Below are positions 5,127 to 55,395 of a stretch of 55,467 nucleotides of DNA, piece by piece. The DNA comes from Gemmatimonadaceae bacterium (GTDB taxonomy: Bacteria; Gemmatimonadota; Gemmatimonadetes; Gemmatimonadales; Gemmatimonadaceae), in NCBI GenBank assembly GCA_013813715.1, contig JACCRF010000175.1:1-55467 (forward strand). The letters run 5' to 3'. How positions within the stretch are numbered: position 1 is the first letter of the stretch; each line of letters opens with the position of its first letter. The position numbers were made by a program, and so were the translations under genes. Below the pieces are notes generated by a model. It saw nothing but the letters and a program-made list of their open reading frames with translations. It made no database searches and had not been told where the DNA came from.

Positions 5127-5190
5127 CGGGCTTCAAGATGCGCAGGGCATGGGCTGGATGGAAGCGTGCGGCGCCGTGCAACCACGAGCC

Positions 5191-7797
5191 TCAGAGAGTC
5201 GCCGTGACACCCCCAATCACGCGGCGGCCGATGACCGAGCCTCCGTAGATCTGAAACCGCTGCTGATCGAGCACATTCGTCCCGGTGACGAATAACTTGA
5301 GACGGGGAGCCGCCCGCCAGCTCGCGTTCGCGTTTACGATCTGGGACGCCGGTACGTAGCCGGTGAAGACACCGGCCGCCCACTGATAGCCACTCACCAT
5401 CCGCAACGTGCCGCTCAGGTCGAGTCCCCGCCCGTTCTGATACAGCGCCGTAAGCGCCCCCTTGTGCTTCGGAGTGTTCGGCAACAGCGCGTCGGTTCCA
5501 ATGCTCGCCTCCTCGACCTCGAAGTGGAACAGAGCGTAGCTCGCCTCAGCGCGGAATGTATCGGAGATCTGCATCGAAACGCCGGTTTCCAGCCCGCGTT
5601 CCCGCACCTTGCCAGCGTTGGTATATGACACGACCAGCGCCCTCCGTCCTTCTACGGTTGCCAGCAATGACTGCGTTCCGGCGACAAGGGCGTCGTAGTT
5701 GGTGCGCAGTATCTGCGCACCGCCGATAATCGCCTGGCGTTGAGCTTCCGGGATCGCCCCCGCCGGAAGTGCCGCGGCCCGCGCGGCGATCGCCGCCAGA
5801 TACGCAGGCACGTCGGTGCCACCGTCGCTGTACAGATATTGCGGGAACTCCGGATTGACGTTCGCCAGAAGGTCAGTGACGAAGTCGCGTTTGTCGTTCA
5901 TGAAGAGATCGACCGTGAGGTAGCCACGCTTCCCAAGGTCACCGGAATAGCCCAGTTCGTATCCGGTAATCTTCTCGACCTCGAGCGCCCGGTTGCCGCG
6001 AGCCAGGACCGGGGTCTGCGAGTCGAAGTTCCACGGGAGATCAGCCGGAAGACCCTGCGTGCCGATTGCGCGACCCGTCGCCAGAAAGCCCTCGAGCGCG
6101 GCTTCGAGCGCGCGCGGGCTCGCGGTTGGTGCGGCGGCATTGGCGTGCAGGAAAAACTCGGAGTAGTTCGGTGTCTGAAACGCTTTGTTCACCGAAAGCC
6201 GTACCGACCGGTTCTCGCCGGCAGAGAAAACCAGCGCCGCTTTGGGTGAGAACTGCGACTCGAAGAGGCTGCCATCGTCCCACCGGCTGGCGGTCACGAG
6301 CTTCAGGCGCGGGGATAGCTTCACCTCCACCTGGCCATATGCCGAGTACAGCCCGTCGGTGCGATCGTCATTCTCGGCAGCGACGAGCGTCTGGGAGGTA
6401 TTCATATGCGTTGAGCGCGCCGAAGCGCCGACGATGAACCGGGCGCGATCGCCCCACAGGTCGTTATTGTACTGCGCTTCTCCGTGGGCGACGGCCGATT
6501 TCTCGAGGAAGAACGTGCCGGAGCCGAGGGCCCACTGCGGGTCTCGCGTGTCGCGTCCCGTGTACCACGTGAGGACGTTGAAGCGTTCGCCCGCCCATGC
6601 CGCCCGCGCCCACGGCCGTTGCGCGCGGGCTACCTGAACTCTGCCAAGGCCTGTAACGAAAGTTTCGTTGCGGCCTTCCCCGAGGCCTCCTTCGATGGTG
6701 GCGAGTGAGCCGTCTTGCGCGTAGTAGTCGACGCGCGCGGAGGCATGTGCGCTGGTCACCTGATCGCGATCCCCGATTGCGGCCAACGTCACGGGGTCGA
6801 GCCCCTGTCCGATGAGTGGTCTGCTCTCCCGTGATTTCGGCACCGGCGAACTCGTGACCGGATCATACTCCTGCACGATGTCAGTGCTGTCGCGGCGCGT
6901 GCGCGAACGGGCCCAAGTGTCGCTCGCGGAGTATCCCGCCGCGAGCTTGTAGCCGAAGCGCTCGCCGCCGAAAAGGCCGGCGTGCATCGCCTCGGCGCGG
7001 ATCGTCTCGAGCTCGCCGCCGGCGAGCGTCAGGCGCGAGCCCGCGGCCTCGCGGGCCGTCTGCGAAGTGAGTGTCAGCACGCCCGAAAATGCGTTGGCGC
7101 CGTACAGTGCCGAGCCGGGCCCACGGACCATCTCGATTCGGGAAACGTCATCGAGTGAGGTGCCCATCGCGCCCCACTCCTGAGAGCCGAGGAACGCGAT
7201 GGCCACATCGCGACCGTCTTCCAGCACAAGCACACGCCGCGTCAGGGAGGAGTTGAACCCGCGAGCGTTGACGTTGAAGTCATTCACGCCGTTCTGTACG
7301 ATGTCGACGCCGGGAACCGTCGCGAGTACGAGTGGAGTCTGTCCCGTGGGGGCGATTGCCGCGACTATTTGAGGCGACACGACGCTGATCGCCGCCGGCG
7401 CCTCGACGAGCCGTTCGGGTGAGCGCGACGCCGTCGAAACGATGACGTCGCTCAGCCGTAGGGCAAGGGCGACCATGGCGACGTTCACCGTCGCAGTTTG
7501 CGCGGCGACGACGTTGACTTCCTCGACGCGCGGGATGAAGCCCAACGATCGGAACTGGACCGTGCGCTGTCCGGCGGCTACGCGAGGGAGGGTGTAACGC
7601 CCGTCGGATCCGGTGGACGTGGCAACGCCGGTGCCCAGCACGGTCACGGTCACACCGCTGAGCCGGATTGCGCTCTCGCCACGCGTAACAGTCCCCCCAA
7701 TTACTCCCGTTGCCTGCGCGCCCGCGAGCGGAACACAAAGGTGAGCAGCCACGGCGGTGAATCCCAGAATGACAACTCTACCGGACATACAACGCAT
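5191..7797 (-). CDS. TonB-dependent outer-membrane receptor with carboxypeptidase-regulatory-like domain
   Basis: 868 residues. A signal peptide ends near AGAQA. It is followed by a carboxypeptidase-regulatory-like (CarboxypepD_reg) beta domain (about 30-110, VIGGTVTRGESAIRLSGVTV), a plug domain (about 125-240, including VPGVDIVQNGVNDFNVNARG and MVRGPGSALYGANAFSGVL) and a 22-strand-type barrel to the C-terminus. It would import an unknown substrate through the outer membrane using TonB energy. The ATG at 7797 is chosen because GGGAG lies 6 nt upstream; a TTG codon sits directly before it. No partner SusD or substrate-specific enzyme lies beside it; the downstream same-strand genes are a kinase and a methyltransferase. 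The C-terminal residue is Leu, not the usual Phe. Confidence 0.92.
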   Translation of the reverse strand: MRCMSGRVVILGFTAVAAHLCVPLAGAQATGVIGGTVTRGESAIRLSGVTVTVLGTGVATSTGSDGRYTLPRVAAGQRTVQFRSLGFIPRVEEVNVVAAQTATVNVAMVALALRLSDVIVSTASRSPERLVEAPAAISVVSPQIVAAIAPTGQTPLVLATVPGVDIVQNGVNDFNVNARGFNSSLTRRVLVLEDGRDVAIAFLGSQEWGAMGTSLDDVSRIEMVRGPGSALYGANAFSGVLTLTSQTAREAAGSRLTLAGGELETIRAEAMHAGLFGGERFGYKLAAGYSASDTWARSRTRRDSTDIVQEYDPVTSSPVPKSRESRPLIGQGLDPVTLAAIGDRDQVTSAHASARVDYYAQDGSLATIEGGLGEGRNETFVTGLGRVQVARAQRPWARAAWAGERFNVLTWYTGRDTRDPQWALGSGTFFLEKSAVAHGEAQYNNDLWGDRARFIVGASARSTHMNTSQTLVAAENDDRTDGLYSAYGQVEVKLSPRLKLVTASRWDDGSLFESQFSPKAALVFSAGENRSVRLSVNKAFQTPNYSEFFLHANAAAPTASPRALEAALEGFLATGRAIGTQGLPADLPWNFDSQTPVLARGNRALEVEKITGYELGYSGDLGKRGYLTVDLFMNDKRDFVTDLLANVNPEFPQYLYSDGGTDVPAYLAAIAARAAALPAGAIPEAQRQAIIGGAQILRTNYDALVAGTQSLLATVEGRRALVVSYTNAGKVRERGLETGVSMQISDTFRAEASYALFHFEVEEASIGTDALLPNTPKHKGALTALYQNGRGLDLSGTLRMVSGYQWAAGVFTGYVPASQIVNANASWRAAPRLKLFVTGTNVLDQQRFQIYGGSVIGRRVIGGVTATL

Positions 7798-40616: not shown

Positions 40617-41609
40617 ATGGCTTCTGCCGCTTCAAGCTCCGCTTCACCTTGTCCCGCCATCTCGGGAATCAGCTACGTCTTCCCTGATTGCTCGCGCTCC
40701 GTGCGCCAGCTTTTCGACGAAGGCAAGCTGGCTACGTCGGCTGAGACCCTCGAGTCATTCGGGTTTGAGAACGTGCACGTCGGCACCTCGGAGAGCCCTT
40801 ACGACCTTGCTCTCAGTGCAGTCACCAGACTGCTCGACGAGCAAAGTATCGATCCGGAAAGCGTAGGCCTGTTGATTTATGGGGGGACGCCCGGGTTCAT
40901 GGCGTTCTCACCCGCCGCTGACGCGGAGAAGGGAGCGGCCGGAATGTGCGGCAGCAACCGGTTCAAGTATCCGGCCGCGCGGCTGCAATACGATCTTGGC
41001 CTCACGAGCGCGTCGACGTTCGCCATAGACCAGCTTGCCTGCACCACGCTGCTCGGCGCGGCGCGGATCGCGCGTTCGCTGTGCATCACAGAGGGGATCG
41101 AGCGCGCGATCTGCGTGTCGTCGGAGTTCTTCCCGATGCACGCCGGGCGCGAAGCCATCTTCAACTGCACCTCGGACGCCGCCTGCGCCGTGCTCATAGA
41201 GCGCGATGGCGCGCGAAACCGGCTCGTGTCCGCGAGCACGGTGACGAAGGGCTACTACTGGGACGTCGACGCGATGCGCGATGAGATCGTTGCGTCGTAC
41301 TTCCCGACGTCGCGATTCGTCGTTGAGCGCACGCTCGAGCAGGCCTGCTGGAAGACGGCCGACGTGGACTGGATCATCCCGCACAACGTGAGCCTGCGTA
41401 GCTGGGAGATCCTTTCCGGCCTCCTTCGCCTGCCTAACGCGCGGCTCTGGTCGGAGAACATATCCCGGCACGGTCACACCCTTGCCGGAGACAACTTCAT
41501 CAATTATCGCGATGCTATCGATGCGGGTGCGATCGAAGCGGGTCAGCGCGTCCTGCTTTTCTCCTACGGGTTCGGCGCACACTGGACCGGCGTCGCGGTG
41601 GAGGCCTGA
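40617..41609 (+). CDS. 3-oxoacyl-ACP synthase III (KAS III/FabH)-like enzyme
   Basis: 330 residues, the FabH length. Thiolase fold with nucleophile Cys142 in DQLACTTLLGA and catalytic His256 in IIPHNVS. The third FabH residue, Asn in GNT, appears to be His287 (HGHTLAGDNF), giving Cys-His-His in place of Cys-His-Asn. FabH starts fatty-acid chains by decarboxylative condensation on malonyl-ACP; relatives in natural-product pathways instead transfer acyl groups to amines or alcohols, and a changed third residue is common among those. It is the first gene of the nine-gene operon. Its likely partner is the carrier protein three genes on. Whether it condenses or transfers cannot be told from sequence. 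Confidence 0.88.
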   Translation: MASAASSSASPCPAISGISYVFPDCSRSVRQLFDEGKLATSAETLESFGFENVHVGTSESPYDLALSAVTRLLDEQSIDPESVGLLIYGGTPGFMAFSPAADAEKGAAGMCGSNRFKYPAARLQYDLGLTSASTFAIDQLACTTLLGAARIARSLCITEGIERAICVSSEFFPMHAGREAIFNCTSDAACAVLIERDGARNRLVSASTVTKGYYWDVDAMRDEIVASYFPTSRFVVERTLEQACWKTADVDWIIPHNVSLRSWEILSGLLRLPNARLWSENISRHGHTLAGDNFINYRDAIDAGAIEAGQRVLLFSYGFGAHWTGVAVEA

Positions 41610-41610
41610 A

Positions 41611-42711
41611 ATGACTGATCACGACACAGTTCTCGTGACCGGCGCGACGGGCCTGGTCGGCGGAGGCATTCTGATGCGGATGCTGCGCGCAAATCCGCGC
41701 CTGCGGGCTTTCGTGCTCGTGCGGGACGAGATCGGGTGGCACGCCGCATCACATCGCCTTGGAAATCTCGCCGAGCGGATCGTGCCCGTGCGGGGAGACA
41801 TGACCGTCGTGGGATTGGGCCTCGAGGACGGAGCTCGCCGTCGTCTCGCTGAGGAAGTCACGATGATCGTGCACGCCGCGGCCGACACGAGCTTTTCGAG
41901 GCCGCTAGACCAGGCGCGTCTGGCAAACACTCAGGGAACTCGTGAGCTGCTGTCGCTGTCGCGCATCTGCGGGGGCCTCCGGCGCTTCGCGTACGTCAGC
42001 ACCGCATTTGTCGCTGGCCGTCACCGCGGACTGATCCGCGAGATGGACAATGGCCCGGCCGAGGGCTGGGTCAACTCGTACGAGCAATCGAAGTACGAAG
42101 CCGAAGCGCTCGTTCGGGCCAGCGCGGCGGATTGGGTGATCTTCCGGCCGAGCACGATCGTTTGCCGCGGTGTTGAGGGAAGCATTCCGCAGATCAACGC
42201 GGTGCACCGCGCTTTGCGGGTGTACTATCGCGGCCTCGCAGCGATGATGCCGGGTGGCCGCGAGGATCTTCTCGACCTCGTGACGGCCGACTACGTGAAT
42301 GACGCGATCGCTCGCGTCACGCTGGATCCCCGCGCCTCGCGCAGAACGCTCCACCTCTGCGCCGGCAGTGCAGCGCTGCCGCTCGGCGAGCTGGTGGACA
42401 CGGCGTACGAGCTGTGGGCACGAGACCCGATGTGGCGGAAGCGCGGCATCGAGAAGGCGGTGCTCACCGATCTCGCGACGTACACGCTTTTCGCCAACGC
42501 CGTGATCGAGACGGGCGACGCCCGGCTCGGCGCGGTGCTGTCGTCGCTCTCGCATTTCATTCCGCAGCTCGCGCTCTCCAAGCAGTTCGACACCACAGTC
42601 GCGGATCGCCTGGTCGGCTGCGCCGCGCCGGAGGTGCGCACGTACTGGAGCGCCATGCTGGCTCATCTGCTCGCAGGAAACTGGGGCGTTGTCTCGGAGA
42701 GAGCGGCATGA
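41611..42711 (+). CDS. Thioester-reductase-like NAD(P)-dependent SDR protein
   Basis: 366 residues, with GGAGG 7 nt before the ATG, starting 1 nt after the KAS III stop. Extended short-chain dehydrogenase fold: nucleotide site TGATGLVGGGIL, VRGDM, HAAADTSF, the catalytic Ser in AYVSTAFVAG, and Tyr/Lys in SYEQSKYEAE. Substrate side FRPSTIVCRG. The pattern is that of the NAD-binding-4 group (thioester reductase domains of NRPSs and fatty acyl-CoA reductases), which reduce carrier-bound thioesters to aldehydes or alcohols. In this operon the natural substrate would be an acyl or aminoacyl thioester on the carrier protein encoded next. The final GTG-ATG-A junction overlaps the carrier gene by 4 nt. 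Confidence 0.85.
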   Translation: MTDHDTVLVTGATGLVGGGILMRMLRANPRLRAFVLVRDEIGWHAASHRLGNLAERIVPVRGDMTVVGLGLEDGARRRLAEEVTMIVHAAADTSFSRPLDQARLANTQGTRELLSLSRICGGLRRFAYVSTAFVAGRHRGLIREMDNGPAEGWVNSYEQSKYEAEALVRASAADWVIFRPSTIVCRGVEGSIPQINAVHRALRVYYRGLAAMMPGGREDLLDLVTADYVNDAIARVTLDPRASRRTLHLCAGSAALPLGELVDTAYELWARDPMWRKRGIEKAVLTDLATYTLFANAVIETGDARLGAVLSSLSHFIPQLALSKQFDTTVADRLVGCAAPEVRTYWSAMLAHLLAGNWGVVSERAA

Positions 42712-42974
42712 GCGCGCGAGCCGAGAATTTTGTGACGGCGATGGTGGCCTGGCTCAACACGCGGTTCGCGCCCGACGGCATCACGATCGGCAGGGATACG
42801 CCGCTGTTCGCGAACGGCCTCATCAACTCAATCCGCGTGCTGGATCTCATCGCCTGGACGGAGGAAGCGATCGGGTCGGAAATCCCCGACCCGCGCGTCC
42901 GGATGGACAATTTTCGCACCGTGGCGCGGATCGCCCAGGTGTTTGTCGAGGAGAGCGCCAATGTGGCTGCCTGA
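42708..42974 (+). CDS. Acyl carrier protein of the amino acid:[carrier protein] ligase type
   Basis: 88 residues, starting in an ATGA overlap with the reductase stop. It has the four-helix carrier layout with the prosthetic-group site GLINSIRVLDLI, Ser41 being the expected phosphopantetheine attachment. The usual Asp before this Ser is Asn40. The helix after it (AWTEEAIGSEIPDP, then the FRTVARIAQVF helix) matches carrier proteins. It overlaps the ligase gene by 14 nt, which fits the known pairing of such ligases with a neighbouring carrier. The carrier would hold the amino acid as a thioester on phosphopantetheine while the oxidases and transferases act. The phosphopantetheinyl transferase is not encoded nearby. 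Confidence 0.88.
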   Translation: MSARAENFVTAMVAWLNTRFAPDGITIGRDTPLFANGLINSIRVLDLIAWTEEAIGSEIPDPRVRMDNFRTVARIAQVFVEESANVAA

Positions 42975-43881
42975 GGAGCTCGTAGCCGAGCTGCGTGCGC
43001 GCCAGTATCTGTGGGAAGCAACGCCGGGCCTGGTCGGCATGCGCGGGCCGCTCCTGGATTTGGCGCGCGATATCGAGCAAGCGATCGCCGGGGTCGCGCG
43101 TGCGGAGACCAATGATGAGTGGCGCGTGCCGTCGGGCATCGCGTTCGAGACCCTCGAGTCCGCGCAGTACTTCGCGTCGTTTCCGCAATGGCTCACGGCC
43201 GCTTCGCATCTGAGCGGCGATGAGGCGATGCTGGAGCGCGTCGCCAAGTCCGCATCTCCAGGTGCCGCCGCACGCGCGTGCATGTCGCCGGCGTCGGCCG
43301 CTTTGTCGCCTGCGGTCTGCTATCACGCATACGCGGCGTTGTCGGGGAGCGCGCTCGAGGGGACGAGCCTCATGACCGCGGAAGAGGTATGCTGGCGGCA
43401 CGAGGGCGACCGGTTCGCTCCGCTGGAGCGCGGCTGGGCGTTTCGAATGCGAGAGATCGTGTGCCTTGGAACCGCCGCCGATGTAGAAGAGTTCCGGCAG
43501 CGCGGAATGCGGAGCGGAGCCGCGCTGGCGGCATCGCTCGGAATCGCAACTTCGATGCTCGAGGCGACGGATCCCTTTTTTGCGCCAACCGGGCGCGGGC
43601 GCGCGCTGCTGCAACGGCTCAAGGCGTTGAAGCACGAGCTGACGATTGAATACTCCGGCGGCCGCCAGCTCGCGATCGCTTCGTTCAACAACCACGAGCG
43701 GTTCTTCGGCGAGGCGTTCGGCATCACGCTGAGCGATGGCTCTCCCGCATACAGCGCCTGCGTCGCGTTCGGCCTCGAGCGGTGGCTGCTCGCGTTTCTC
43801 GTCGCGCACGGCCCGTCGCAGGCCGGGTGGCCTGCGATCGACGCGACGAGCTGCGATGAACCCGTTTTCCAGGAGCATTGA
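42961..43881 (+). CDS. Amino acid:[carrier protein] ligase homologue (class II aaRS-like)
   Basis: 306 residues from ATG 42961, with GAGGAG 6-7 nt upstream. It has the catalytic core of atypical (methanogen-type) seryl-tRNA synthetases but is too short for a tRNA-binding domain. Motif 2 is FRMREIV (161-167) and motif 3 GLERWLLAF (271-279). Cys120, Glu165 and Cys267 stand where the Cys/Glu/Cys zinc site of the family lies, with its characteristic spacing. Bradyrhizobium relatives activate Gly or Ala with ATP and load the phosphopantetheine of a carrier protein, not tRNA. The adjacent carrier gene, overlapping by 14 nt, supports the same role here. The zinc would bind the substrate amino group; which amino acid is chosen cannot be read from the sequence. 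Confidence 0.86.
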   Translation: MWLPEELVAELRARQYLWEATPGLVGMRGPLLDLARDIEQAIAGVARAETNDEWRVPSGIAFETLESAQYFASFPQWLTAASHLSGDEAMLERVAKSASPGAAARACMSPASAALSPAVCYHAYAALSGSALEGTSLMTAEEVCWRHEGDRFAPLERGWAFRMREIVCLGTAADVEEFRQRGMRSGAALAASLGIATSMLEATDPFFAPTGRGRALLQRLKALKHELTIEYSGGRQLAIASFNNHERFFGEAFGITLSDGSPAYSACVAFGLERWLLAFLVAHGPSQAGWPAIDATSCDEPVFQEH

Positions 43882-43882
43882 G

Positions 43883-44641
43883 ATGCAAGGGACAATCGAG
43901 CTGGTCGCGGCGCGGAAAGCGCGGCTCTATGCGCGTTGCGCTTCGGCGGCGGAGCGCGGCGGATGGTCGGTCGAGCGGGACATCGCCTGGTCGGAAGTAG
44001 ATCGCGATCGGGCGCATGCCAAGCCTGAGGTTCTCGCCGCGCTGCGCGACGCCGCGCTCATTGAATCCTATCACCCGGTAAACCTCGCGCGACTCATGCG
44101 GGCAACATGGGATGATGTTGACGCGTCGGTGGTCTTCTCACTCGAGCTGTACGAGGGGTTCAAGCATTTCCACGCGCTGCGTTGGTATCTCGAGGCCGTC
44201 GCGTACGAGCCGGCGATAACTGACGAGGAGCTGGTGGACATTCGGCGCTCTCAGGCCGAGGTGGAGGTGACGCGGGACGAGGTCATCGAGCGGCTCGTGG
44301 AGTTCATGCTGTCCGAGCATCTCGCCCACTACTTCTTCCGTCGCCTTGGCGAGCAGGCCGAGGATCCGGTGCTTGCGGATCTCCTTGGACGAATCGCGTC
44401 GGATGAGGTGCGGCACGCGCAGAGCGCGTCCGACATCATTGCAAAGCGCATTGCGGCTGACGCGTCTCTCGTGCCGCGCGTGCTCGATGCCGCGCTCGAC
44501 TTCCATCACTTCGGCGAGCAGGCAATCGGCACTGTCCCGGTAGCCCAGCCCGGGGACCCAATCGCCATCCAGACATTCGCGCGACGGATAGAGCGGCTGT
44601 GCGGCGTGCGCCTCGTAGATCACATCAAACAGGGTTTCTGA
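43883..44641 (+). CDS. Acyl-ACP-desaturase-like diiron protein
   Basis: 252 residues from ATG 43883, with AGGAG 7-8 nt upstream; an in-frame ATG at 43856 is less likely. The helical-bundle core (about 80-215) has a second-half motif IASDEVRHAQ (Glu175, His178) matching the IAADEKRH box of plant stearoyl-ACP desaturase, preceded by Glu145 in LSEHLAHYFF. The first-half ligands would be Glu91/His95 (YEGFKHFHAL), spaced ExxxH rather than ExxH, so the first iron site may differ. A diiron oxidase acting on carrier-bound substrates is likely: desaturation, hydroxylation or amine oxidation are all possible. It lies between the ligase and a second diiron gene. Confidence 0.8.
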   Translation: MQGTIELVAARKARLYARCASAAERGGWSVERDIAWSEVDRDRAHAKPEVLAALRDAALIESYHPVNLARLMRATWDDVDASVVFSLELYEGFKHFHALRWYLEAVAYEPAITDEELVDIRRSQAEVEVTRDEVIERLVEFMLSEHLAHYFFRRLGEQAEDPVLADLLGRIASDEVRHAQSASDIIAKRIAADASLVPRVLDAALDFHHFGEQAIGTVPVAQPGDPIAIQTFARRIERLCGVRLVDHIKQGF

Positions 44642-44655
44642 CACCGGAGATAGCA

Positions 44656-45195
44656 ATGATTGTCGACAACGCGGAGATCTCGCTACTCAACTTTTATCGC
44701 GCGTCCGAGCTGCACGGCGGGCTCATACTCGGCCAGATGGTTCGCAGAACGCGCGATCCGGATCTCATTCTGCAGCTCACGCGTCATAGCGCCGAGGAGG
44801 TCATGCACGCGCAGTTGTGGACGGAGACCATCTTTGCGGTGGGTGGCCGGCCGGGGCCTGTGCGCGACACATATCAGAACCGGTACGTCGAGCGGGTCGG
44901 CACACCGATCAGCACGCTCGAAGTGCTCGCGCTCACGCAAGTGTTCGAGCGGAGAGTGTACCGCCATTTCATGCTCCACCTTCGCCGGCCGAACGTGCAT
45001 CCAACTGTCGCAGTGACGCTGCGCAGAATGCTCGAGGAGGAGAAGGGGCACCTCTCCTGGGTGAAGGAATGGCTCGACGAGCAGTCGAGAGATCACGGCA
45101 TTGAAGTGCGCGACGCGATGAGGCGCTACGCGGCCGCCGACCAGAACATCTACGACGCGTTGACGGCGGAGTACGGCTTCAGGAGCGCTGCATGA
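44656..45195 (+). CDS. Ferritin-like diiron protein
   Basis: 179 residues from ATG 44656, with GGAGA about 7 nt upstream. All six ferritin-type ligands are visible: Glu18 (ASELHGG), Glu48 and His51 (AEEVMHAQLW), Glu98 (VFERRVYRHF), Glu129 and His132 (EEEKGHLSWV). The four-helix bundle is compact and has no signal peptide. Ferritin-like proteins of this size serve as oxygenases, peroxidases or oxidases in natural-product pathways as well as in iron storage. Next to a desaturase-like diiron gene and a carrier-protein ligase it probably acts on the carrier-bound intermediate. Its ATGA junction overlaps the following gene by 4 nt. Confidence 0.82.
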   Translation: MIVDNAEISLLNFYRASELHGGLILGQMVRRTRDPDLILQLTRHSAEEVMHAQLWTETIFAVGGRPGPVRDTYQNRYVERVGTPISTLEVLALTQVFERRVYRHFMLHLRRPNVHPTVAVTLRRMLEEEKGHLSWVKEWLDEQSRDHGIEVRDAMRRYAAADQNIYDALTAEYGFRSAA

Positions 45196-46361
45196 GCGCA
45201 CCGGTGGCGATTCGCGCGGCGCCGGTCCGAACCCGTTACCGAGTGCCGCGCATCACGCTGCCGGGCGTGTTGCCAGGCCGTCTGTATTTTGCGCAGGTTC
45301 GCGAAGATCCGTTGCTCGAGATCGAGGCCCTCGTGCCGGCGCGCGACGATGTTGTCGTCGTCGTCGGATCGGGCGGGTGCACGGCCCTGTCTCTACTCGC
45401 CGCCGGTGCCGGGCGAGTGATTGCCGTCGATTCCAACTCGACTCAGACGAGCATCGTTGAGCTCAAGGCGGCGGCCGTGACCGCGCTCGGTACGAGCCAG
45501 GCCGTAAGCTTTCTCGGCGGATCGTCAATGGAGGGCAGGAAGCGCCGCCGAATCTACTCGACGTTGTCGCGATTCATGTCGTCGGCCGCGACCGCCTGCT
45601 GGAACTCTAACCTAGCGATGATCGAGAGGGGAGTTCTGAACGCGGGCGTCAGTGAGCGGTTCATCGCGTTAGTCGCGGGCGTTCTCAGAAAATGCGTCCA
45701 GCCACGCGAGCGAATCGAGCGTCTGCTCGCGTGCACCAGTCTGCCGGAGCAGCGCGAGCTGTATCACAGCGAGTGGAACAACCGTCGCTGGCGCCTGCTG
45801 TTCGATCTCATGCTCAATCGCTGGGCGTTCAACCGCACCTATGAGCCCGGGTTCTTTGCGAATGTCGCGAACCCGAGCTTTGCGGCGCACTTCCGCGGGC
45901 TGCTGGAACATGCGCTGTGCGAGGTGCCGGTAGCGACGAACTACTTCCTCCATCACATGCTTACCGGTGCGTACCCTGCGGGCGTGCCTCGAGGGGTTCC
46001 TCCATATCTGGATAAGTCGGACAATGACACGAGCCGCTCCGGCGCGCTTGGACTCGAGCTGGTGGACGGACGGTATCAGGACTACCTCGCCTCGTGTGCA
46101 GACAGCAGCGTGGACGGATTTGCGCTGTCGAACATCTGCGAATGGTTGACCGCGCCTGAGGTTTCTGATCTCTTCGCGCAAGTGATCCGTGTGGCGAGGC
46201 CTGGGGCTCGAGTCTGCTTCAGGAACTTCGTCGGCCATACCGAGGTTCCGGAGCGACTGAAGGACATTCTCGTGGAGGATGCGGAGTGGGGAAGGGCCGC
46301 GATTCTCCGCGACCGGAGCTGCCTGCAGGCGCGCATCGCAATCTGCACGGTGGAGAAGTAA
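45192..46361 (+). CDS. BtaA-like (DUF3419) 3-amino-3-carboxypropyl transferase homologue
   Basis: 389 residues. The SAM-binding half has DVVVVVGSGGCTALSLLAAG followed by VIAVDSNSTQTSIVELKAAA, the characteristic first part of DUF3419. BtaA of this family moves the 3-amino-3-carboxypropyl group of SAM onto diacylglycerol in betaine-lipid synthesis. The C-terminal half carries FALSNICEWL and FRNFVG, resembling the family. In a carrier-protein operon the acceptor is probably not diacylglycerol; the usual N-methylating partner BtaB is absent. It may add a homoserine-like C4 unit to the amino acid intermediate. The start overlaps the ferritin-like stop by 4 nt. Confidence 0.82.
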   Translation: MSAPVAIRAAPVRTRYRVPRITLPGVLPGRLYFAQVREDPLLEIEALVPARDDVVVVVGSGGCTALSLLAAGAGRVIAVDSNSTQTSIVELKAAAVTALGTSQAVSFLGGSSMEGRKRRRIYSTLSRFMSSAATACWNSNLAMIERGVLNAGVSERFIALVAGVLRKCVQPRERIERLLACTSLPEQRELYHSEWNNRRWRLLFDLMLNRWAFNRTYEPGFFANVANPSFAAHFRGLLEHALCEVPVATNYFLHHMLTGAYPAGVPRGVPPYLDKSDNDTSRSGALGLELVDGRYQDYLASCADSSVDGFALSNICEWLTAPEVSDLFAQVIRVARPGARVCFRNFVGHTEVPERLKDILVEDAEWGRAAILRDRSCLQARIAICTVEK

Positions 46362-46365
46362 AACC

Positions 46366-47505
46366 GTGTCCGCCACGGTCGTTCAGCGTGCCGGGAATTC
46401 ATCGGAATGCGTGGTTCGCGAGGCGAATGCGGCTGACAACCGCGCCCTGATCGCGCTTGCGGCGGCGTGCCCCATGCGGGGCGACCTTTCTCTTCGCATC
46501 GACCGCGGTCCCGACTTCTTTGCGTTGAATCGCCTCGAGGGCGAGCGGTGGCGTGTCGGCGTCGTCGACAGGGAGGAGTTGCCGGTGGGGTGCGTCGCGT
46601 TCAGCGAGCGACGCGTGTACCTCAACGGAAAGCCGACACTGACTGGATACGCTGGAGATCTCAAGGTGCATCCCGCGCATCGTGACTCGCGGGTCGCGGA
46701 TGCTCTGTCGCTATTCGCGGGCGCGATGGGTGCGGGCCTGCCCACGGGAACGCCAACGCTGATCACGGTTCTGGCTGGAAATCGGGCGATGGAGCGACGC
46801 CTCTCCGGTCCCAGAGGGCTTCCGCGGTTCACGCACATTGCGACTGTGCGGAGTCATGCGGTGAGCATACTGTGGCGGCGCAGGCCGTTGCCGGGCTCCC
46901 GGCTGGTGATCCAGCGCGCGCAGTGGCGTGATCTGAACGACATGATCTCTCTGTGGCGGCGCGTCGCTCCCGTGCGGCAGTTCGCACCCGTGCTCGACGC
47001 CTCCGGATTGTGCGACTGGATCGGCGGAGCGCCGGGCCTCGCCATCTCGTCGTATCTGCTGGCGCGCGGCGGAGACGGCAAGCTGGTCGGCTTCTTCGCG
47101 CTATGGGATCAGCGCTCGTTCAAGCAGATGCGTGTCGAGAGCTACTCGCCGCGACTGGCGGTGACGCGGCGCTGTTTCAACGCGATCGCTCCGCTTATGG
47201 GGGCCGAGAAGCTACCGCGTGAAGGCGGGGCGCTGCGATTCCTCACGGCGTTGCACGTGTGCGTTCCGCGAGAACATCCCGAAATCCTTCGCGCGCTGGT
47301 GATCGAGGCGCACAACGCGCTTCGACACAAGGGTTACTCGTTTTTCAACGTCGGCCTCGACGTGCTTGATCCTCTGACAGCTGGAATGGGGGGACTGCTA
47401 GCGCAACCCACCGACGTCAACGCGTTCGTCACGTCGAGCCGAGCTCCGGTTGATGCCGCCGAGTTCGCTGGCCGTCCGCTTCACTACGAGATCGCGCTCG
47501 TATGA
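46366..47505 (+). CDS. GNAT-family acyltransferase
   Basis: 379 residues from GTG 46366, 4 nt after the upstream stop and with GGAGAAG about 10 nt upstream. The N-terminal GNAT domain (about 15-165) shows YAGDLKVHPAHRDSRVADAL, which covers the acetyl-CoA pyrophosphate loop, and VYLNGKPTL on the strand before it. A second, less conserved acyltransferase-like half (about 180-379) contains RVAPVRQFAPVLD and HKGYSFFNVGLDVLDPL. It would transfer an acyl group from a CoA or carrier donor to an amine, either to build or to cap the final product. It overlaps the MMPL gene by 4 nt (ATGA). Confidence 0.8.
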   Translation: MSATVVQRAGNSSECVVREANAADNRALIALAAACPMRGDLSLRIDRGPDFFALNRLEGERWRVGVVDREELPVGCVAFSERRVYLNGKPTLTGYAGDLKVHPAHRDSRVADALSLFAGAMGAGLPTGTPTLITVLAGNRAMERRLSGPRGLPRFTHIATVRSHAVSILWRRRPLPGSRLVIQRAQWRDLNDMISLWRRVAPVRQFAPVLDASGLCDWIGGAPGLAISSYLLARGGDGKLVGFFALWDQRSFKQMRVESYSPRLAVTRRCFNAIAPLMGAEKLPREGGALRFLTALHVCVPREHPEILRALVIEAHNALRHKGYSFFNVGLDVLDPLTAGMGGLLAQPTDVNAFVTSSRAPVDAAEFAGRPLHYEIALV

Positions 47506-49826
47506 TTGCCGCTACCCGTTACGTGCTACCCGTTGCCCGTAGGCCCTGGGCGGCGATCGCGGCGTGGATCATCACCAGGCGGCTCTGGGTGATGGGAGCG
47601 TGGATCGTCGTCGCGGCGCTGCTTATCCCGCGGGCGGCGCGGGTCGAGAAGACGCTCGACGTGGCGGCGCGCGTCCCCGGAAGTGAATCGGCTCGTGTTG
47701 AGCAGGTGATCGCGACTCGCTTCTCTTCGGGATTCGCGCAGTACGCGGTCCTCGTGATAACAGGCGGTGCATCGCCGATAACCGAAGCGGGGCGGACTTT
47801 GCTCGAGCGAGTTCGTGCCGATCTGGCTGAATCCTCAGTCGTGACGCGCGCTTTCTCCTGGCTCGATGTTCCCGACACCCTGTTCATCGGACAACGAGGC
47901 GAGACCTTCGTCATTGTCGGTCTCGATGCCAACCGTCGCAGGCCCGACGACTTGATTCCGGTGCTTCGCGACGTGACCGCCCGGATCAGCGAGTCAGCGC
48001 GAGGCATCCATCCAGACATCTCTCTGATGTGGACCGGAGAGATCGCACTCAACTACGATCTTCGGCAGGTCAGCGCCGCGGACGCACGGCAGGCGGAGCG
48101 CCGCGTGCTCCCTCTCACCCTCCTTCTGCTCATGATCGCGTTCGGAGCAGTTGCGGCGTCGCTGCTGCCGCTGGTCGCGGGCGGGCTCGCGATCGCGCTG
48201 GCGCTTGGTGCGTCGGTCGCGATCGCCGGAGTCTGGCCGCTGTCAATCCTCCTCCAAAACGTCGTCACGATGCTGGGACTCGGTCTTGGGATCGACTATG
48301 CGCTACTCGTCGTCGGACGTTTCCGCGAATCGCTTGCATCGGGTCGCAGTCATTTGCACGCTGCGCGCGCGAGCGCCGAGCATGCGGGTCACACGATACT
48401 TCTCTCCGGGGCCAGTGTCGCCATCGGGTTCGCTGCGCTGCTGCTTGTTCCAGTCAACGAGGTTCGTTCGATCGCCGTGGGCGGGCTCCTCGTGGTCGCC
48501 ACGTCGGTAGTGCTGTCCGTCACGCTGCTTCCCGGGATGCTCGCGATGCTTGGGCCTCGCGTCAACTGGGGCCGAGTCGTAAAAAGACATGAAGCTGAAG
48601 CTGGAGCTAAAGCCGAGGCTGGAGCTGGGCGAGGCGGGTCAGCTCGCTGGAGACGTTGGGGGATGTTCGTCTGCTCGCACCCGATCCTCGTTCTCATTGC
48701 GGCGGGCGCGCCCACGGCGCTGCTTGCGCTGCAATCCACGCGTCTCAACACTGACCTGCCGCGCGGTGACTGGCTTCCGGCGGCGATGGAATCTTCGAGG
48801 GGCCTGCATGCGCTCGAGCGGATGCAGCGTAGCGGAATAGTCAACTCCGTGCGTGTCTTGGTGGAGCTTCCCGCCGGCGCTCCCTGGGATTCACCGGCTG
48901 GCTGGAACGCCGTCCGCACGGCTGGTGAGAAGTTCTTCCGCGATCCACGCGTCGCGAGAGTGCGTTCTCTTTCCACCGCGACTGGATTCCAGTCACCAAA
49001 CCTCCAGTTGATCGCCGCGCTGCCGCCGGATCTCCGCGGCTCGCTCGTCAGCACCGACGGGCGGTCGGCACTCATCGAGGTGATGCCCGCCGAGGCTGCG
49101 GCGCAGCACGGCGCGATGGACATCGTGCGTGAGCTGCGCAGTCGGCCCGGATCTTCGCTAACCGGACTGGCCGGCTCGTCGATCCAGGTCGGTGGACTCC
49201 CCGCATTCAACGTGGACTACGAAGCAGCGATCGGAGACCGCTTCTGGAGCGTTGTCGCTGCAGTCGTAGGCGTGACGATGCTCGCGCTTCTCATCGGTTT
49301 CCGGTCGCTGCTCATCGCCGTGAAGGCAGTCGCGCTCAACCTGCTGTCGGTAGCGGCTGCCTTCGGTGCCGTCGTGCTGGTCTTCCAGGATGGTATGGGC
49401 ATTCATCTCGTGGGCATGTCCTCGCCGCTCGACGGCACATTCACGGCGATTCCTGTGATTGTTTTCTGTGTCGTCTTCGGGCTCAGCATGGACTACGAGG
49501 TCTTTCTCGTCGCCCGGATCGCGGAGGCGCGAAGGAACGGTTTGGCCGACGCGGAAGCGATCGCCGAGGGCATGGCTCGCACCGGCGGGCTCATCACGAG
49601 CGCAGCCGCGATCATGATCGTCGTGTTCGCCGCGTTCACACTCGGCGATTTCGTGATCGTGAAGATTCTCGGGCTCGCGCTCGGCGTTGCAGTGCTGGTG
49701 GACGCAACCGTTGTACGAATGGCGATCGGACCGGCGCTGTTTCGACTTGCCGGACGGTGGAACTGGTGGCCGGGCGAACGGACACATGCTCGTGCGGAAA
49801 GATCACTCGCGCTGCAAGTTCGTTAA
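47502..49826 (+). CDS. MMPL-family (RND) transporter
   Basis: 774 residues. It is organised as two halves, each with one N-terminal helix, a large outer loop and five helices. The two repeat motifs are GLGIDYALLVVGRFRE (in half 1) and FGLSMDYEVFLVARIAE (in half 2), the paired Asp-Tyr being the proton relay of MmpL proteins. A soluble linker rich in Glu/Ala/Lys (KRHEAEAGAKAEAGAGRGG) joins the halves. Proton-driven export of lipids or small molecules is the family role; at the end of this operon it most likely exports the product. A hairpin follows the stop, and the convergent glycosylase gene lies beyond. Confidence 0.93.
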   Translation: MIAATRYVLPVARRPWAAIAAWIITRRLWVMGAWIVVAALLIPRAARVEKTLDVAARVPGSESARVEQVIATRFSSGFAQYAVLVITGGASPITEAGRTLLERVRADLAESSVVTRAFSWLDVPDTLFIGQRGETFVIVGLDANRRRPDDLIPVLRDVTARISESARGIHPDISLMWTGEIALNYDLRQVSAADARQAERRVLPLTLLLLMIAFGAVAASLLPLVAGGLAIALALGASVAIAGVWPLSILLQNVVTMLGLGLGIDYALLVVGRFRESLASGRSHLHAARASAEHAGHTILLSGASVAIGFAALLLVPVNEVRSIAVGGLLVVATSVVLSVTLLPGMLAMLGPRVNWGRVVKRHEAEAGAKAEAGAGRGGSARWRRWGMFVCSHPILVLIAAGAPTALLALQSTRLNTDLPRGDWLPAAMESSRGLHALERMQRSGIVNSVRVLVELPAGAPWDSPAGWNAVRTAGEKFFRDPRVARVRSLSTATGFQSPNLQLIAALPPDLRGSLVSTDGRSALIEVMPAEAAAQHGAMDIVRELRSRPGSSLTGLAGSSIQVGGLPAFNVDYEAAIGDRFWSVVAAVVGVTMLALLIGFRSLLIAVKAVALNLLSVAAAFGAVVLVFQDGMGIHLVGMSSPLDGTFTAIPVIVFCVVFGLSMDYEVFLVARIAEARRNGLADAEAIAEGMARTGGLITSAAAIMIVVFAAFTLGDFVIVKILGLALGVAVLVDATVVRMAIGPALFRLAGRWNWWPGERTHARAERSLALQVR

Positions 49827-51738: not shown

Positions 51739-52464
51739 ATGCGCATAAACCAGGGCGATCTCCACCAGCAGCTACGCGCCGAAGCAATTGCTACGCGTGA
51801 GCGAATTGCCGTGATGGTGCGGCTGCTCGACCCATCGAAGATCAATGAGCATCCTGAGCCAGCGGGATGGAGCGTGGGCGAAGTGCTCGAACACCTTTGC
51901 ATCGCAGACGAGTTGTACCAAGGACAACTCGCGGCCCTGCTGCAGAGCTCTCGTCGGGACGCGGGAGCGCCGTCGCGAGAGTGGAGTTCGTCGTTCATCG
52001 GCGGGATGATCGCGAGCTCGCTTCTCAAGCCCCGGCCGCTTAAGAGTCCAAAGGTCTTTCGACCTGGGCCCACACCACGCAACGGCGTCGTGGAGGAGCT
52101 TCTCTCCCGGGAGATGAGTTTTGTAAAGGAAATGGACGATGCTGCGTCGTTCGACTGGCGCGCGTTGCGAATCCGCTCTCCGGCTTTGCCATCATGGGCG
52201 CCGAAAATGAATCTCGGCGACGGGTTCAGGATTCACATCGTCCATCTCACACGGCATTCCTGGCAGATCGAACGCCTTGCGGGTAAGCTGTTATCGCACA
52301 AATGCGCATCCTGGCCCCCCGGCGACCGGAGACACTTACGCACGACCACGTACTCATTCCTCGACCAGCGAATTCTCCCGCGCGAAATCAGCCAGCTCGC
52401 CGCGCGAGCTGACGCCGACCTTGGCGAAGATGTTCGACATGTGAGTGCTCACCGTGCGCGCTGA
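51739..52464 (+). CDS. DinB-like protein with a read-through tail
   Basis: 241 residues. The DinB four-helix core (about 1-180) is visible in WSVGEVLEHLCIADELYQGQL, with a metal-ligand His, and in FRIHIVHLTRHSWQIERL, with two further His expected to bind the same metal. DinB-like proteins include thiol-dependent transferases and DNA-damage-induced proteins of unknown role. The last 60 residues (after SHKCASWPPG) have no family resemblance. The final 111 nt overlap the end of the convergent LuxR gene in antisense. The original stop may have been lost through a frameshift or mutation near 52300. No ribosome binding site is evident. Confidence 0.8.
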   Translation: MRINQGDLHQQLRAEAIATRERIAVMVRLLDPSKINEHPEPAGWSVGEVLEHLCIADELYQGQLAALLQSSRRDAGAPSREWSSSFIGGMIASSLLKPRPLKSPKVFRPGPTPRNGVVEELLSREMSFVKEMDDAASFDWRALRIRSPALPSWAPKMNLGDGFRIHIVHLTRHSWQIERLAGKLLSHKCASWPPGDRRHLRTTTYSFLDQRILPREISQLAARADADLGEDVRHVSAHRAR

Positions 52465-55395
52465 GATGTCGAGACTGGCTCCGATCTCTTTGTTGGACTT
52501 TCGCTGAGCGACCATTCGCGCAATCTGTACCTCGCGTCCGGTGAGTCCTGCCACCCCTTCAGCGACCGTGCGCGCAGGGGGCCGGGCACCGAGCTTTCGC
52601 AGTTCTTCCCTCACTGCGTCCAACTCACCCGCCGCGCCCAGGCGCGCGAACACATCGTGCGCAGTTCTCAGCTCACGCAGCGCACCTTCCCGGTCGCCGC
52701 TGTCGCGCATCGCTGTCGAGAGCACGCGGCGCACCCGTGATGCGCTGTCGGGATAGGGAATTGCCTCGAGAGCATCCACTGCTTTCCGAAGCAGAGGAAT
52801 GGCGGCCCCGGGATCGTGATCGCGGAGGAGAAAGAGCATCCCTTCGCAGGCATCGGCGACCGCGAGGCCGAGTCGGTTGCTCAGCGGAACGGCGTCGCGC
52901 CGCATGCGTGTGAGATGCGCCGCGGCGCGCTCGAAGTCGCGAATCCATAGTGCAGCTTCCCCAACCACGGGGAGAAGCCACTGGAGCGACCATGCCATGT
53001 ACCCAGACTTGTCGGCGATCGCAAGGCCGGCTTCACCAATACGGATCGCTTCGGCGCAGTTGTCGGTCTCGAGATGATAAGCCGCAAGTCCCATGTGAGC
53101 CGGCGCCATGGTCGGCACATCCACTCTGCGATCTGTCCCCGCGCCAGAGAGATCCCACGCTTCCTCGAAATACGCCCGTGCGCGCTCAAGCTCGCCACGC
53201 CATAGATAGATGAGTCCCGTCCAGACCAGAAGCCTCGGCAGCAGCGTTCGCTGCTTGAGGGTGCGCGCAAGAGCAATGGTCCGCTCACCCGTTGCTAGGC
53301 CCGCATCCCACTCTCCAACGCTCGACGCATACTGAACCGACAACTCCGCGGTCCAGAGTGGGAGCAAGGGCGACCGTAACTGATCCTCGAGCCGCTGGCA
53401 TTCGCCGATGTGTTTCACCAGCTCGGTTGCATTTCCGGTGAGGCCTGCAAAAACTCCCATCGCCCAGTGAGCCGTCCACTCGAGCATCCGCTCGCCGGAT
53501 TCTTTGGCGAGCGCGAGCCCCTCGATACCGTGTGCTAGCGCGACATCGGCCGGGCCGGTCCAAGCATACAATAGAAGAAGCGCACGGTGCGCTCTTGCGA
53601 GGAGGGGCTTGCTGCCCGTCTGCTCGGCGGCCACGCGTGCGCTCTCGACCTCGGCCTTCGCCGAATCGAGCCGCCCCAGCTCCTGAAAGCAGATGCCCTT
53701 CGCGAGATGGAGTCGCACCACGACCTCACGATCGGAGGAGGTGGGCGCGGCGCTGAGGCCTGCGGCAAAATGCACGAGCGCCTCCTCGAACTTTCCGCTC
53801 CAGTAACAAGCGAGGCCCATGCGATGCTCGATAGTCGCGAGGACACCGTGATCACCCGTCGCGAGGACCGTGTCGCGCGCTGACGCCCAGAGTGCCAGCG
53901 CCTCGTCGTATTCTCCAAGCCGCTGACGCGCGCGCGCGAGGCTTCGAACGATCTCGTCGCGATCCACCGGGGCTTCGTGAAGCCGATCTATCACCTCGAG
54001 CGCGGAGGCCAGATAGGTCGCCCCTTCGCGGTTGGCGTATGTCTCGAGTGCAGTGAGCCCGGCCTGACTCAGATACAGCACCGCTTTCGGAGCGAGCGAA
54101 TGCGAACGCGTGAAGTGAAAGGCGAGCTCGCCGGCGTGCGACGGCGCGCGTCTCCCGTAGTAACTCTCGAGCGCCTCCGCAACTCTTGCGTGCAGCAGCC
54201 GCGCGCGCGCGGTACCGAGAGCGCCGTAGATCACCTGCTGGAGTATCGGATGGGCGAAGTCGTAGGTGGTTCCGCCGGTTCCCTGCGTCTCCTCGATTAC
54301 CCTGTACGTCCGCAGCTCCTCGAGCGAGTCAGCGAGTGCGCTTTCGCCCAGCACGGAGACGGCCGCGAGCTGGTCGAACGTGAGTCTCGTGCCGACGACA
54401 GCGGCGACATTGGCGAGATCGCGTGCTTGAGGCGACAGGCGTTCGATGCGCGAGGCGACTGCGTCCCGAACCGTCGGCGGAAGCTGAAGCGATTCCACTT
54501 CCCACCCGACCCAGCGACCGTCGGCCTGCGCGAGCACCCCCGATTCGACCAGCCACTTGAGCGTTTCCTCGACGAAGAAGGGATTGCCGCGCGTCCATCC
54601 GTACAGCAGGGCCGTGAACTGCCGGATCGCCGACGGGTTCACACCGAACCCCTTCTCCAGCATCTTGCCGACGTCACTATGAGAGAGCGGCGCGATACGC
54701 AGCTGTGTGGCGAGGCCGAGGCTGACGAGCGATTGCTCGGTTGTCCGAAGGATGGGGTTGGCATCGCGCTCGGCCTCGTTGTACGAGGCCAGGAGCACGA
54801 TCGGGTGGCCGGAAATCTGCCGGGCGACGAAGTGGAAGAGCTCAAGCGACGAAGCATCGGCCCACTGGAGATTCTCGAGCACGAGACACAGCGGCTGGCG
54901 CGTCGCATAGCGCCCGAGAAACTGGCTGAAGTTCCAGAAGAGGCGCGACTTCAGCTCGGAAGCACCGGTTCCCGCTGCGGCACGCTCGCGGTCGCCGGGA
55001 CCTGCAAGCGCGGGGAACAGATAGGCGAGCTCGGCCGTGCTGCCGCGGGTCAGCAGCGACAGCGCGGCCGGCTCGAGCATCCGCAGGGATGGAAGGAGCG
55101 CATCGGAGAACAGGGCGTAAGGAATTCCCGTCTCCACGGCGTACGAGTGTCCGACAACGACGTTCCATCCGTCGCGCGCGGCCTTCTCGGCGGCAGTCGA
55201 AAGGATGCGCGTCTTGCCCACGCCACCCTCGCCGGAGACGATGAGCGTCTTTCCGGAGCCCTTTTCAGCCTCCGAGAAGAGAGATGCGATGAGCGACAGC
55301 TCGGCTGCTCGCCCGACGAGTGGAAGAGCGGCCAGTGAGGCGCGAGGGGCGGCTGGTGGCGGCATTGTCAGGGGTAAGGATACCAAGAGCGACAT
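52354..55395 (-). CDS. AAA-ATPase LuxR-family transcriptional regulator (LAL-like)
   Basis: 1013 residues. The AAA/STAND module (about 25-400) has Walker A GEGGVGKT (54-61) and the Walker B-like LCLVLENLQWADASS. The central region (about 430-920) is TPR-like helical repeat, expected to sense ligands or partners. The C-terminal LuxR helix-turn-helix (about 945-1005) reads LTGREVQIARMVAQRKSNKE then ISARTVSTHMSNIFAKVGV. This is the LAL/MalT-type layout: ATP and ligand binding lead to oligomerisation and promoter activation. The start at 55395 is the longest; ATG 55365 is equally plausible. The genes it controls are unknown. The last 72 nt of the window, upstream of it, show nothing. Confidence 0.95.
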   Translation of the reverse strand: MSLLVSLPLTMPPPAAPRASLAALPLVGRAAELSLIASLFSEAEKGSGKTLIVSGEGGVGKTRILSTAAEKAARDGWNVVVGHSYAVETGIPYALFSDALLPSLRMLEPAALSLLTRGSTAELAYLFPALAGPGDRERAAAGTGASELKSRLFWNFSQFLGRYATRQPLCLVLENLQWADASSLELFHFVARQISGHPIVLLASYNEAERDANPILRTTEQSLVSLGLATQLRIAPLSHSDVGKMLEKGFGVNPSAIRQFTALLYGWTRGNPFFVEETLKWLVESGVLAQADGRWVGWEVESLQLPPTVRDAVASRIERLSPQARDLANVAAVVGTRLTFDQLAAVSVLGESALADSLEELRTYRVIEETQGTGGTTYDFAHPILQQVIYGALGTARARLLHARVAEALESYYGRRAPSHAGELAFHFTRSHSLAPKAVLYLSQAGLTALETYANREGATYLASALEVIDRLHEAPVDRDEIVRSLARARQRLGEYDEALALWASARDTVLATGDHGVLATIEHRMGLACYWSGKFEEALVHFAAGLSAAPTSSDREVVVRLHLAKGICFQELGRLDSAKAEVESARVAAEQTGSKPLLARAHRALLLLYAWTGPADVALAHGIEGLALAKESGERMLEWTAHWAMGVFAGLTGNATELVKHIGECQRLEDQLRSPLLPLWTAELSVQYASSVGEWDAGLATGERTIALARTLKQRTLLPRLLVWTGLIYLWRGELERARAYFEEAWDLSGAGTDRRVDVPTMAPAHMGLAAYHLETDNCAEAIRIGEAGLAIADKSGYMAWSLQWLLPVVGEAALWIRDFERAAAHLTRMRRDAVPLSNRLGLAVADACEGMLFLLRDHDPGAAIPLLRKAVDALEAIPYPDSASRVRRVLSTAMRDSGDREGALRELRTAHDVFARLGAAGELDAVREELRKLGARPPARTVAEGVAGLTGREVQIARMVAQRKSNKEIGASLDISARTVSTHMSNIFAKVGVSSRGELADFARENSLVEE

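Follow-up and report, generated by a model that had tools for sequence, protein, structure and literature searches.

A conserved nine-gene operon of Gemmatimonadaceae as a candidate pathway from a carrier-bound amino acid to an exported N-acylated lipid

Amino acid:[carrier protein] ligases have been known since 2010, and as late as 2022 a review gave their biological role as unknown (PMC9437257); a note of 2010 on the neighbourhoods of their genes lists a carrier, a dehydrogenase, a glycosidase and one uncharacterised protein (PMC2922099). Here we describe an operon of nine plus-strand genes, at positions 40617–49826 of a 55,467-nucleotide stretch of DNA from a Gemmatimonadaceae bacterium (contig JACCRF010000175.1, assembly GCA_013813715.1; ‘the window’), in which such a ligase keeps company with a protein like beta-ketoacyl-acyl carrier protein synthase III (KAS III), a thioester reductase, a carrier protein, two diiron proteins (FER1 and FER2), a BtaA-like protein, a double-GNAT protein and an MMPL-family exporter (Table 1). 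The operon probably yields an N-acylated lipid for export, built from a carrier-bound, perhaps N-oxidised, amino acid; a reading to which, taken as a whole, we give a probability of roughly 60%.

Several described systems come close to parts of this assembly. The rhizobial ligases (Bll0957; PDB: 3mey) have the same fold and zinc ligands, with a dedicated small carrier alongside, but their neighbourhood consists of an acyl carrier protein (ACP), an acyl-CoA dehydrogenase, a DUF1839 protein and a glycosidase, and lacks KAS, thioester reductase, diiron, BtaA-like and MMPL genes. The valdiazen/fragin (ham) and pvf pathways likewise combine a carrier-bound amino acid, an AurF-type N-oxygenase and reductive release, the conjunction of the three with thioester reduction being established for valdiazen/fragin (PMC11659414); loading there is however of the nonribosomal peptide synthetase (NRPS)-like kind, and neither a ligase of the present family nor a KAS III, BtaA-like, double-GNAT or MMPL protein is described. 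Lipothrenin biosynthesis (lit) shares KAS III, ACP, FAAL, an R2-like diiron protein and an AurF-type N-oxygenase, and its product is an N-acylated, N-hydroxylated amino acid; it differs in listing no amino acid:[carrier protein] ligase or thioester reductase, in having a major facilitator superfamily rather than an MMPL transporter, and in lacking a BtaA-like protein. In the DOBA/diazoacetone (dob) pathway a carrier-bound, glycine-derived unit is extended by a ketosynthase and N-oxidised by a ferritin-like diiron protein, although by hydrazone chemistry, on a type I polyketide synthase (PKS) and with other loading enzymes. Synthesis of betaine lipids by BtaA/BtaB also uses a DUF3419 protein, with predicted transfer of 3-amino-3-carboxypropyl from S-adenosylmethionine (SAM), whereas here that protein is embedded in a carrier-protein pathway and has no BtaB beside it. 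Finally, eukaryotic N-myristoyltransferase (NMT) is a double-GNAT protein over its whole length, with a conserved free C-terminus at the catalytic position; the present protein is bacterial and has no sequence-level match to NMT families. All of the families are known, but their assembly is undescribed in the open literature searched (subscription papers lay outside its scope), in keeping with what the first-pass annotation had said, and the product may well belong to a new class.

The same nine genes in the same order (‘type A’) recur in at least six loci (the window, L011, L012, L059, L061 and L062). The cluster is complete in L011, L059, L061 and L062; L012 has all nine genes, the exporter being cut at the contig end, and L022, L056, L060, L065 and L066 carry the same cluster cut at contig ends. 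Within Gemmatimonadota, type A extends over no fewer than three families and seven genera. Ratios of nonsynonymous to synonymous substitution (dN/dS) of 0.07–0.55 across all nine genes indicate purifying selection, with the FER1, KAS and FER2 genes tending to be the tightest. Pairwise gene distances correlate, with r of 0.66–0.95 within type A and 0.88–0.95 for the core over all three types of cluster described below (values reached by at most 10 of 2000 shuffles); a correlation that reports shared history and does not of itself prove shared function. The genes flanking the operon are common to the window’s own genus, and further out nothing recurs except a regulator gene and a single weak match to the amidohydrolase; the flanks are not conserved beyond the genus, and the conserved block therefore stops at the operon ends. 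The first-pass annotation had allowed that homologous loci might share nothing but unrelated subsets of these genes; we see instead that order is kept and distances co-vary. One of the cut clusters (L060, genome G327, 4814–5832) has some 1 kb between the double-GNAT and MMPL genes, unlike the other type A clusters.

Beyond type A, we see that the pathway divides into nested modules, two in number: a ‘core’ of six genes, and a ‘tail’ of BtaA-like, double-GNAT and MMPL genes specific to type A. The core—KAS, reductase, carrier, ligase, FER2 and a second diiron protein of either of two kinds—is common to all types and spans four phyla, being found in Gemmatimonadota, in a Verrucomicrobiota metagenome-assembled genome (MAG), in Myxococcota and in the actinomycete Catellatospora bangladeshensis, itself the sole strong match among 396 Actinomycetota genomes sampled. 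Type B clusters (L013, L014, L015, L016, L057 and, in part, L058; B-like L034 in an Akkermansiaceae MAG) combine the KAS, reductase, carrier and ligase genes with one for a methyltransferase-like protein; FER1 is present, FER2 is fused to a canonical ACP domain, and the BtaA-like, double-GNAT and MMPL genes are absent. In L013–L016 carrier and ligase form one open reading frame (ORF). The fusions thus link ligase and carrier in one case, and a diiron protein and a carrier in the other. Type C clusters, from Myxococcales and Kofleriaceae MAGs (L028, L029, L030 and L033, some partial) and from Catellatospora bangladeshensis (L032), encode KAS, an AurF-family diiron protein, carrier, ligase, reductase, FER2 and a second carrier, with a phosphopantetheinyl transferase (PPTase) in Myxococcota and an acyl-CoA-ligase-like protein upstream in L028 and L033; downstream in Catellatospora lie a FAAL-like ligase and an MMPL gene, the latter in common with type A. 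Sfp-type PPTase genes adjoin several clusters. Conserved order, co-varying distances and both sorts of fusion uphold the earlier proposal of a single pathway, and leave us in very little doubt that the nine genes constitute one dedicated route of biosynthesis and export. Myxococcota also contain solo FER2 homologues of about 33% identity, with no other cluster gene (L100–L111).

The ligase matches Bll0957 at 4.9e-40 over residues 50–292, against 1.7e-7 for the best seryl-tRNA synthetase (SerRS), and scores 187.5 bits (2.9e-55) with PRK07080, under that model’s cut-off of 357; it is a SerRS-like class II catalytic core without the tRNA-binding domain. Its three zinc ligands align with those of Bll0957, which we take to be Cys131, Glu176 and Cys279 in the numbering of that protein. 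The carrier gene overlaps the ligase gene by 14 nt, and the PP-binding match of its product (21.8 bits) is barely above cut-off. Glycine or alanine is loaded by ligases of this family, and from its sequence the present enzyme is predicted to load an amino acid onto the pantetheine arm of the operon’s carrier. Domain searches found no NRPS adenylation or condensation domain among the nine proteins; together with the retained zinc ligands this supports the NRPS-free activation proposed at first pass, and we regard an amino acid held on the carrier without an NRPS as very probable.

Relatives of the ligase also appear in other settings; none was found in the viral contigs searched. In plasmid pRgalR602b of Rhizobium gallicum (L141, 5482–8793), ACP, acyl-CoA dehydrogenase, ligase and DUF1839 genes come right after the plasmid nif genes. 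On a plasmid of Streptomyces sp. NBC_00335 (L142, 4087–9568), genes for an AurF-like diiron protein, ACP, ligase and PPTase follow one another next to ketosynthase genes; the occurrence of this run in a very different, polyketide-like locus suggests that N-oxidation, on a carrier, of ligase-loaded amino acids takes place in more than one pathway. On two further Streptomyces plasmids (L140, 2860–11234; L143, 2076–10246), ligase relatives annotated as hypothetical stand beside ACP, 3-hydroxyacyl-CoA dehydrogenase, acyl-CoA dehydrogenase and acyltransferase genes, a combination that resembles those supplying aminomalonyl-ACP as an extender unit.

Turning to the diiron proteins, our confident model of FER1 (predicted local distance difference test, pLDDT, 88.7) overlays best on the acyl-ACP desaturase 2uw1 (Z 19.6, root-mean-square deviation (rmsd) 3.2, 236 residues aligned), then on R2-like oxidases (Z 18.5) and the VlmB azoxy synthase (Z 16.9); the sequence scores 21.7 bits with FA_desaturase_2 (cut-off 22.7) and has a full set of candidate iron ligands. 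No FER1 relative was found in the plasmids searched. FER2, which shares with FER1 a short helical match only, has an invariant six-ligand set plus an extra invariant His within HxxxExxH, apparently on the other ligand helix; to judge by its sequence the motif recalls diiron N-oxygenases, but is suggestive only; the match to AurF is 16.2 bits against a cut-off of 29.6. In type C, FER1 is replaced by a clear AurF-family protein (138.8 bits, 2.6e-40) whose ligands E69, E111xxH114, E158 and H185xxxE189xxH192, invariant in three sequences, are all seven of those of N-oxygenases, in whose ligand list the seventh His is included (PMC12154687). Oxidation on the carrier, as envisaged in the first-pass annotation, is supported as the likely mode, and we consider it likely that the diiron proteins act on the carrier-bound unit; N-oxidation specifically, by analogy with type C, may be the chemistry, at odds a little short of even.

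The KAS protein is less straightforward. Its KAS III C-terminal domain scores 55.5 bits, above cut-off, but the catalytic triad is Cys-His-His rather than the Cys-His-Asn of FabH, every cluster homologue aligned having His where FabH has Asn, and types A and B keeping Cys-His-His. The protein is not an ordinary FabH, so that the plain KAS III call made previously has to be amended to a divergent form; no part of our model is weaker than the reaction assigned to it. Of the ‘elongation’ proposed along with that call, the presence of a KAS-like gene stands; elongation itself is unproven, related clusters keeping the gene after losing one catalytic His. The reductase scores 153 bits with NAD_binding_4 and 128 bits with the thioester-reductase domain (under the NCBIfam cut-off of 213), and resembles the MxaA-type reductive release domain (4u7w, 4e-24).

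In the tail, the BtaA-like protein scores 185 bits with DUF3419 (cut-off 28.2), and its SAM-binding SGGCxxL motif is invariant in 11 sequences; the nine operon proteins include no BtaB-type N-methyltransferase or second SAM enzyme. The double-GNAT protein, neglected at first pass, proves to be central. Weak in sequence searches (20 bits), its model (pLDDT 87) overlays eukaryotic NMT over the whole length (Z 24.4, rmsd 3.6, 317 residues aligned), such that the end of the model falls on the NMT ends at 451, 455 and 496. All 11 cluster proteins finish in -E-x-A-L-V followed by the stop; in four of these the stop does not overlap the next gene’s ATG, and gene overlap alone cannot therefore account for the -ALV ending. 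The C-terminal carboxylate of NMT is the catalytic base, an arrangement described as having no parallel among other GNAT proteins (PMC4964394); in HisAT, the other human double-GNAT protein, the C-terminus ends after the last strand, short of the active site (PMC12219266). In our model the C-terminus of the double-GNAT protein thus occupies a conserved position, for which a role as catalytic base is predicted. We also considered an aminoacyl-tRNA transferase of the Fem/VlmA kind, which may yet apply; the list of fold matches was filled by NMT and tandem-GNAT structures. As for the exporter, it scores 223.5 bits with MMPL, MmpL3 and HpnN are among its nearest models, and it has both of the Asp-Tyr pairs that serve as the proton relay in MMPL proteins; the export function assigned previously is thus supported. 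The NMT-like character of the double-GNAT protein makes a lipid product likely, and we favour, somewhat less firmly than action of the diiron proteins on the carrier, a product that is both lipidated and exported.

From what was computed (which genes are present, the conservation of their order, their co-variation and fusions, the catalytic residues kept, and the folds), we infer the substrates, the order of the second to fourth steps and the product as follows. The ligase would make the adenylate of a small amino acid (glycine or alanine, by family precedent) and charge the carrier’s pantetheine arm. The two diiron proteins would then oxidise the carrier-bound amino acid, one of them most likely at the amino nitrogen, as the AurF-type enzyme that replaces FER1 in type C would suggest. 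The KAS III-like enzyme would couple the aminoacyl unit with another acyl unit, by a C–C bond with malonyl-ACP if the Cys-His-His triad is decarboxylative, after which the thioester reductase would free the product as an aldehyde or alcohol. In the last step the BtaA-like enzyme would donate a 3-amino-3-carboxypropyl group from SAM, the double-GNAT protein would put a fatty acyl chain on an amino group, with its own C-terminal carboxylate acting as base, and the resulting amino-lipid would leave by way of the MMPL protein. This exact order of steps is doubtful. Hardly less tentative is the most ambitious version of the scheme: a new NRPS-free line in which a ligase derived from an aminoacyl-tRNA synthetase would supply a glycyl- or alanyl-carrier for N-oxidation by a diiron enzyme and joining to a second unit, with NMT-like lipidation (the C-terminus as base) and a SAM-derived aminocarboxypropyl head, giving an exported N-oxidised amino-lipid unlike known lipids and a first role for amino acid:[carrier protein] ligases.

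Several observations weigh against this pathway as drawn. A number of operon proteins score under curated family cut-offs; FER1, FER2 and the double-GNAT protein under every one. FER1 has no AurF family match, and residue 171 is Ile, with no seventh His in the column; orthology of FER1 with the type C AurF-like protein found no sequence-level support in a profile comparison, and FER1 may instead catalyse desaturation or C-hydroxylation. The KAS of type C has Gln where the first catalytic His would be, and the joining step may thus be something other than a Claisen reaction. A mycobacterial tandem GNAT protein of unknown function (7q3a) ties with NMT as a match to the double-GNAT model (Z 23.7); we do not, for this reason, claim NMT family membership. 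The Pfam models of NMT gave no match to the protein at E≤0.1. Locus L125 (genome G235) is a type A cluster without FER2 and with a broken ligase frame, and related genomes have FER2 alone, next to relatives of the window’s flanks (L021, whole; L064, 1242–1778; L063, 6550–7086); FER2 may not, then, be essential. L125 (5101–10696) belongs to another family, has a PPTase upstream and breaks its ligase frame near residues 170–207, and is either a decaying cluster or an assembly error. In L021 the solo FER2 is followed by a 46-residue match to the exporter C-terminus, as though the remaining cluster had been deleted.

The alternative that survives best, though we think it unlikely, is that the KAS-like protein is an acyltransferase, moving an acyl chain onto the (N-hydroxylated) amine to give N-acyl-N-hydroxy, lipothrenin-like hydroxamates, perhaps as metal chelators. 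The lipothrenin cluster joins KAS III, FAAL, ACP, an R2-like protein and an AurF-type N-oxygenase to a lipid hydroxamate product, although litB works in fatty acid synthesis and litE is nearly dispensable (PMC10616846). Type C clusters, with one catalytic His lost, keep the KAS gene beside the AurF-like protein and ACPs, and the FAAL-like ligase of Catellatospora points the same way; the Cys-His-His triad of types A and B is however typical of decarboxylative condensing enzymes, and in type A another protein is already a candidate for acyl transfer.

Marginally less probable again is that the product, rather than a secreted specialised metabolite, is a structural envelope aminolipid, replacing a phospholipid or outer-membrane lipid and put in the outer membrane by the MMPL protein, much as MmpL3 places mycolates, and HpnN hopanoids, in that membrane. 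The nearness of the exporter to models of these two proteins and the NMT-like double-GNAT protein are as expected of such a lipid, and aminolipids are known among bacterial membrane lipids (PMC11631085); against this stand exchangeable tails, which resemble those of specialised metabolism, and a very patchy distribution, with a FER2 match in about 4% of sampled Gemmatimonadota and same-genus relatives that lack the ligase. Both this and the acyltransferase alternative overlap our preferred pathway in most steps, and the confidences given are therefore not exclusive.

We consider it improbable that two pathways share one transcript, the core making a small metabolite and the tail acting on its own to build a membrane lipid, with a homoserine-type head group, N-acylation and export. 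Type B and C cores do exist without the BtaA-like and double-GNAT genes, and DUF3419 proteins elsewhere make betaine lipids. Yet across 395 Gemmatimonadota genomes a BtaA-like gene of the cluster subfamily (≥51% identity) is never found without the core, nine of nine genomes also having the cluster-type ligase, whilst the other DUF3419 genes examined (27–37%) have no core gene nearby; the gene distances of tail and core correlate; and the operon is without the BtaB-type methyltransferase. A chance run of unrelated adjacent genes is refuted by the order kept in a dozen loci, the fusions and the co-varying distances, and its probability is negligible.

A bacterial enzyme resembling NMT, and one resembling BtaA, at work in specialised metabolism would each put a known fold to a new use. 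The ligase gains a fixed set of partners across four phyla, making its role directly testable, and a named culture-collection strain carries a cluster (Catellatospora bangladeshensis NBRC 107357). Genome-mining rules that look for NRPS/PKS domains would probably overlook it.

Table 1. Genes of the operon, with window coordinates and the residues or family features noted for each product (SDR, short-chain dehydrogenase/reductase; RND, resistance-nodulation-division)
Product	Coordinates	Strand	Features
KAS III-like condensing enzyme, 330 aa	40617..41609	+	Cys142, His256, His287
Stand-alone thioester-reductase-like SDR, 366 aa	41611..42711	+	TGATGxxG, Tyr157-x3-Lys161
Carrier protein, 88 aa	42708..42974	+	Phosphopantetheine Ser41, codon 42828-42830
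Amino acid:[carrier protein] ligase, 306 aa	42961..43881	+	Zinc ligands Cys120, Glu165, Cys267
Diiron protein 1 (FER1), 252 aa	43883..44641	+	Acyl-ACP-desaturase / R2-like oxidase fold; E61, E91, H95, E145, E175, H178 invariant
Diiron protein 2 (FER2), 179 aa	44656..45195	+	Minimal ferritin-like; E18, H44xxxE48xxH51, E98, E129xxH132 invariant
BtaA-like DUF3419 protein, 389 aa	45192..46361	+	Predicted SAM-using 3-amino-3-carboxypropyl transferase
Double-GNAT protein, 379 aa, GTG start at 46366	46366..47505	+	NMT-like architecture, invariant C-terminal -ALV; predicted N-acyltransferase
MMPL-family RND exporter, 774 aa	47502..49826	+	Nearest curated model MmpL3; Asp-Tyr pairs at D265, D664

All nine ORFs are present at the coordinates and on the strand given at first pass, and the junctions between them measure +1, -4, -14, +1, +14, -4, +4 and -4 nt, as the range of -14 to +14 nt put forward there had it. 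A single transcript is implied by the gene overlaps alone, a scan for promoters and terminators having returned no site above the level of shuffled sequence. Upstream, on the same strand and 123 bp off, lies an amidohydrolase gene; downstream, a convergent gene ends the run. Further along, at 52354–55395 on the minus strand, the window encodes a 1013-residue regulator of AAA/TPR/LuxR type, relatives of which are found near the cluster or solo FER2 genes in L011, L021, L061, L063 and L064; this regulator may control the cluster or the solo FER2 genes.

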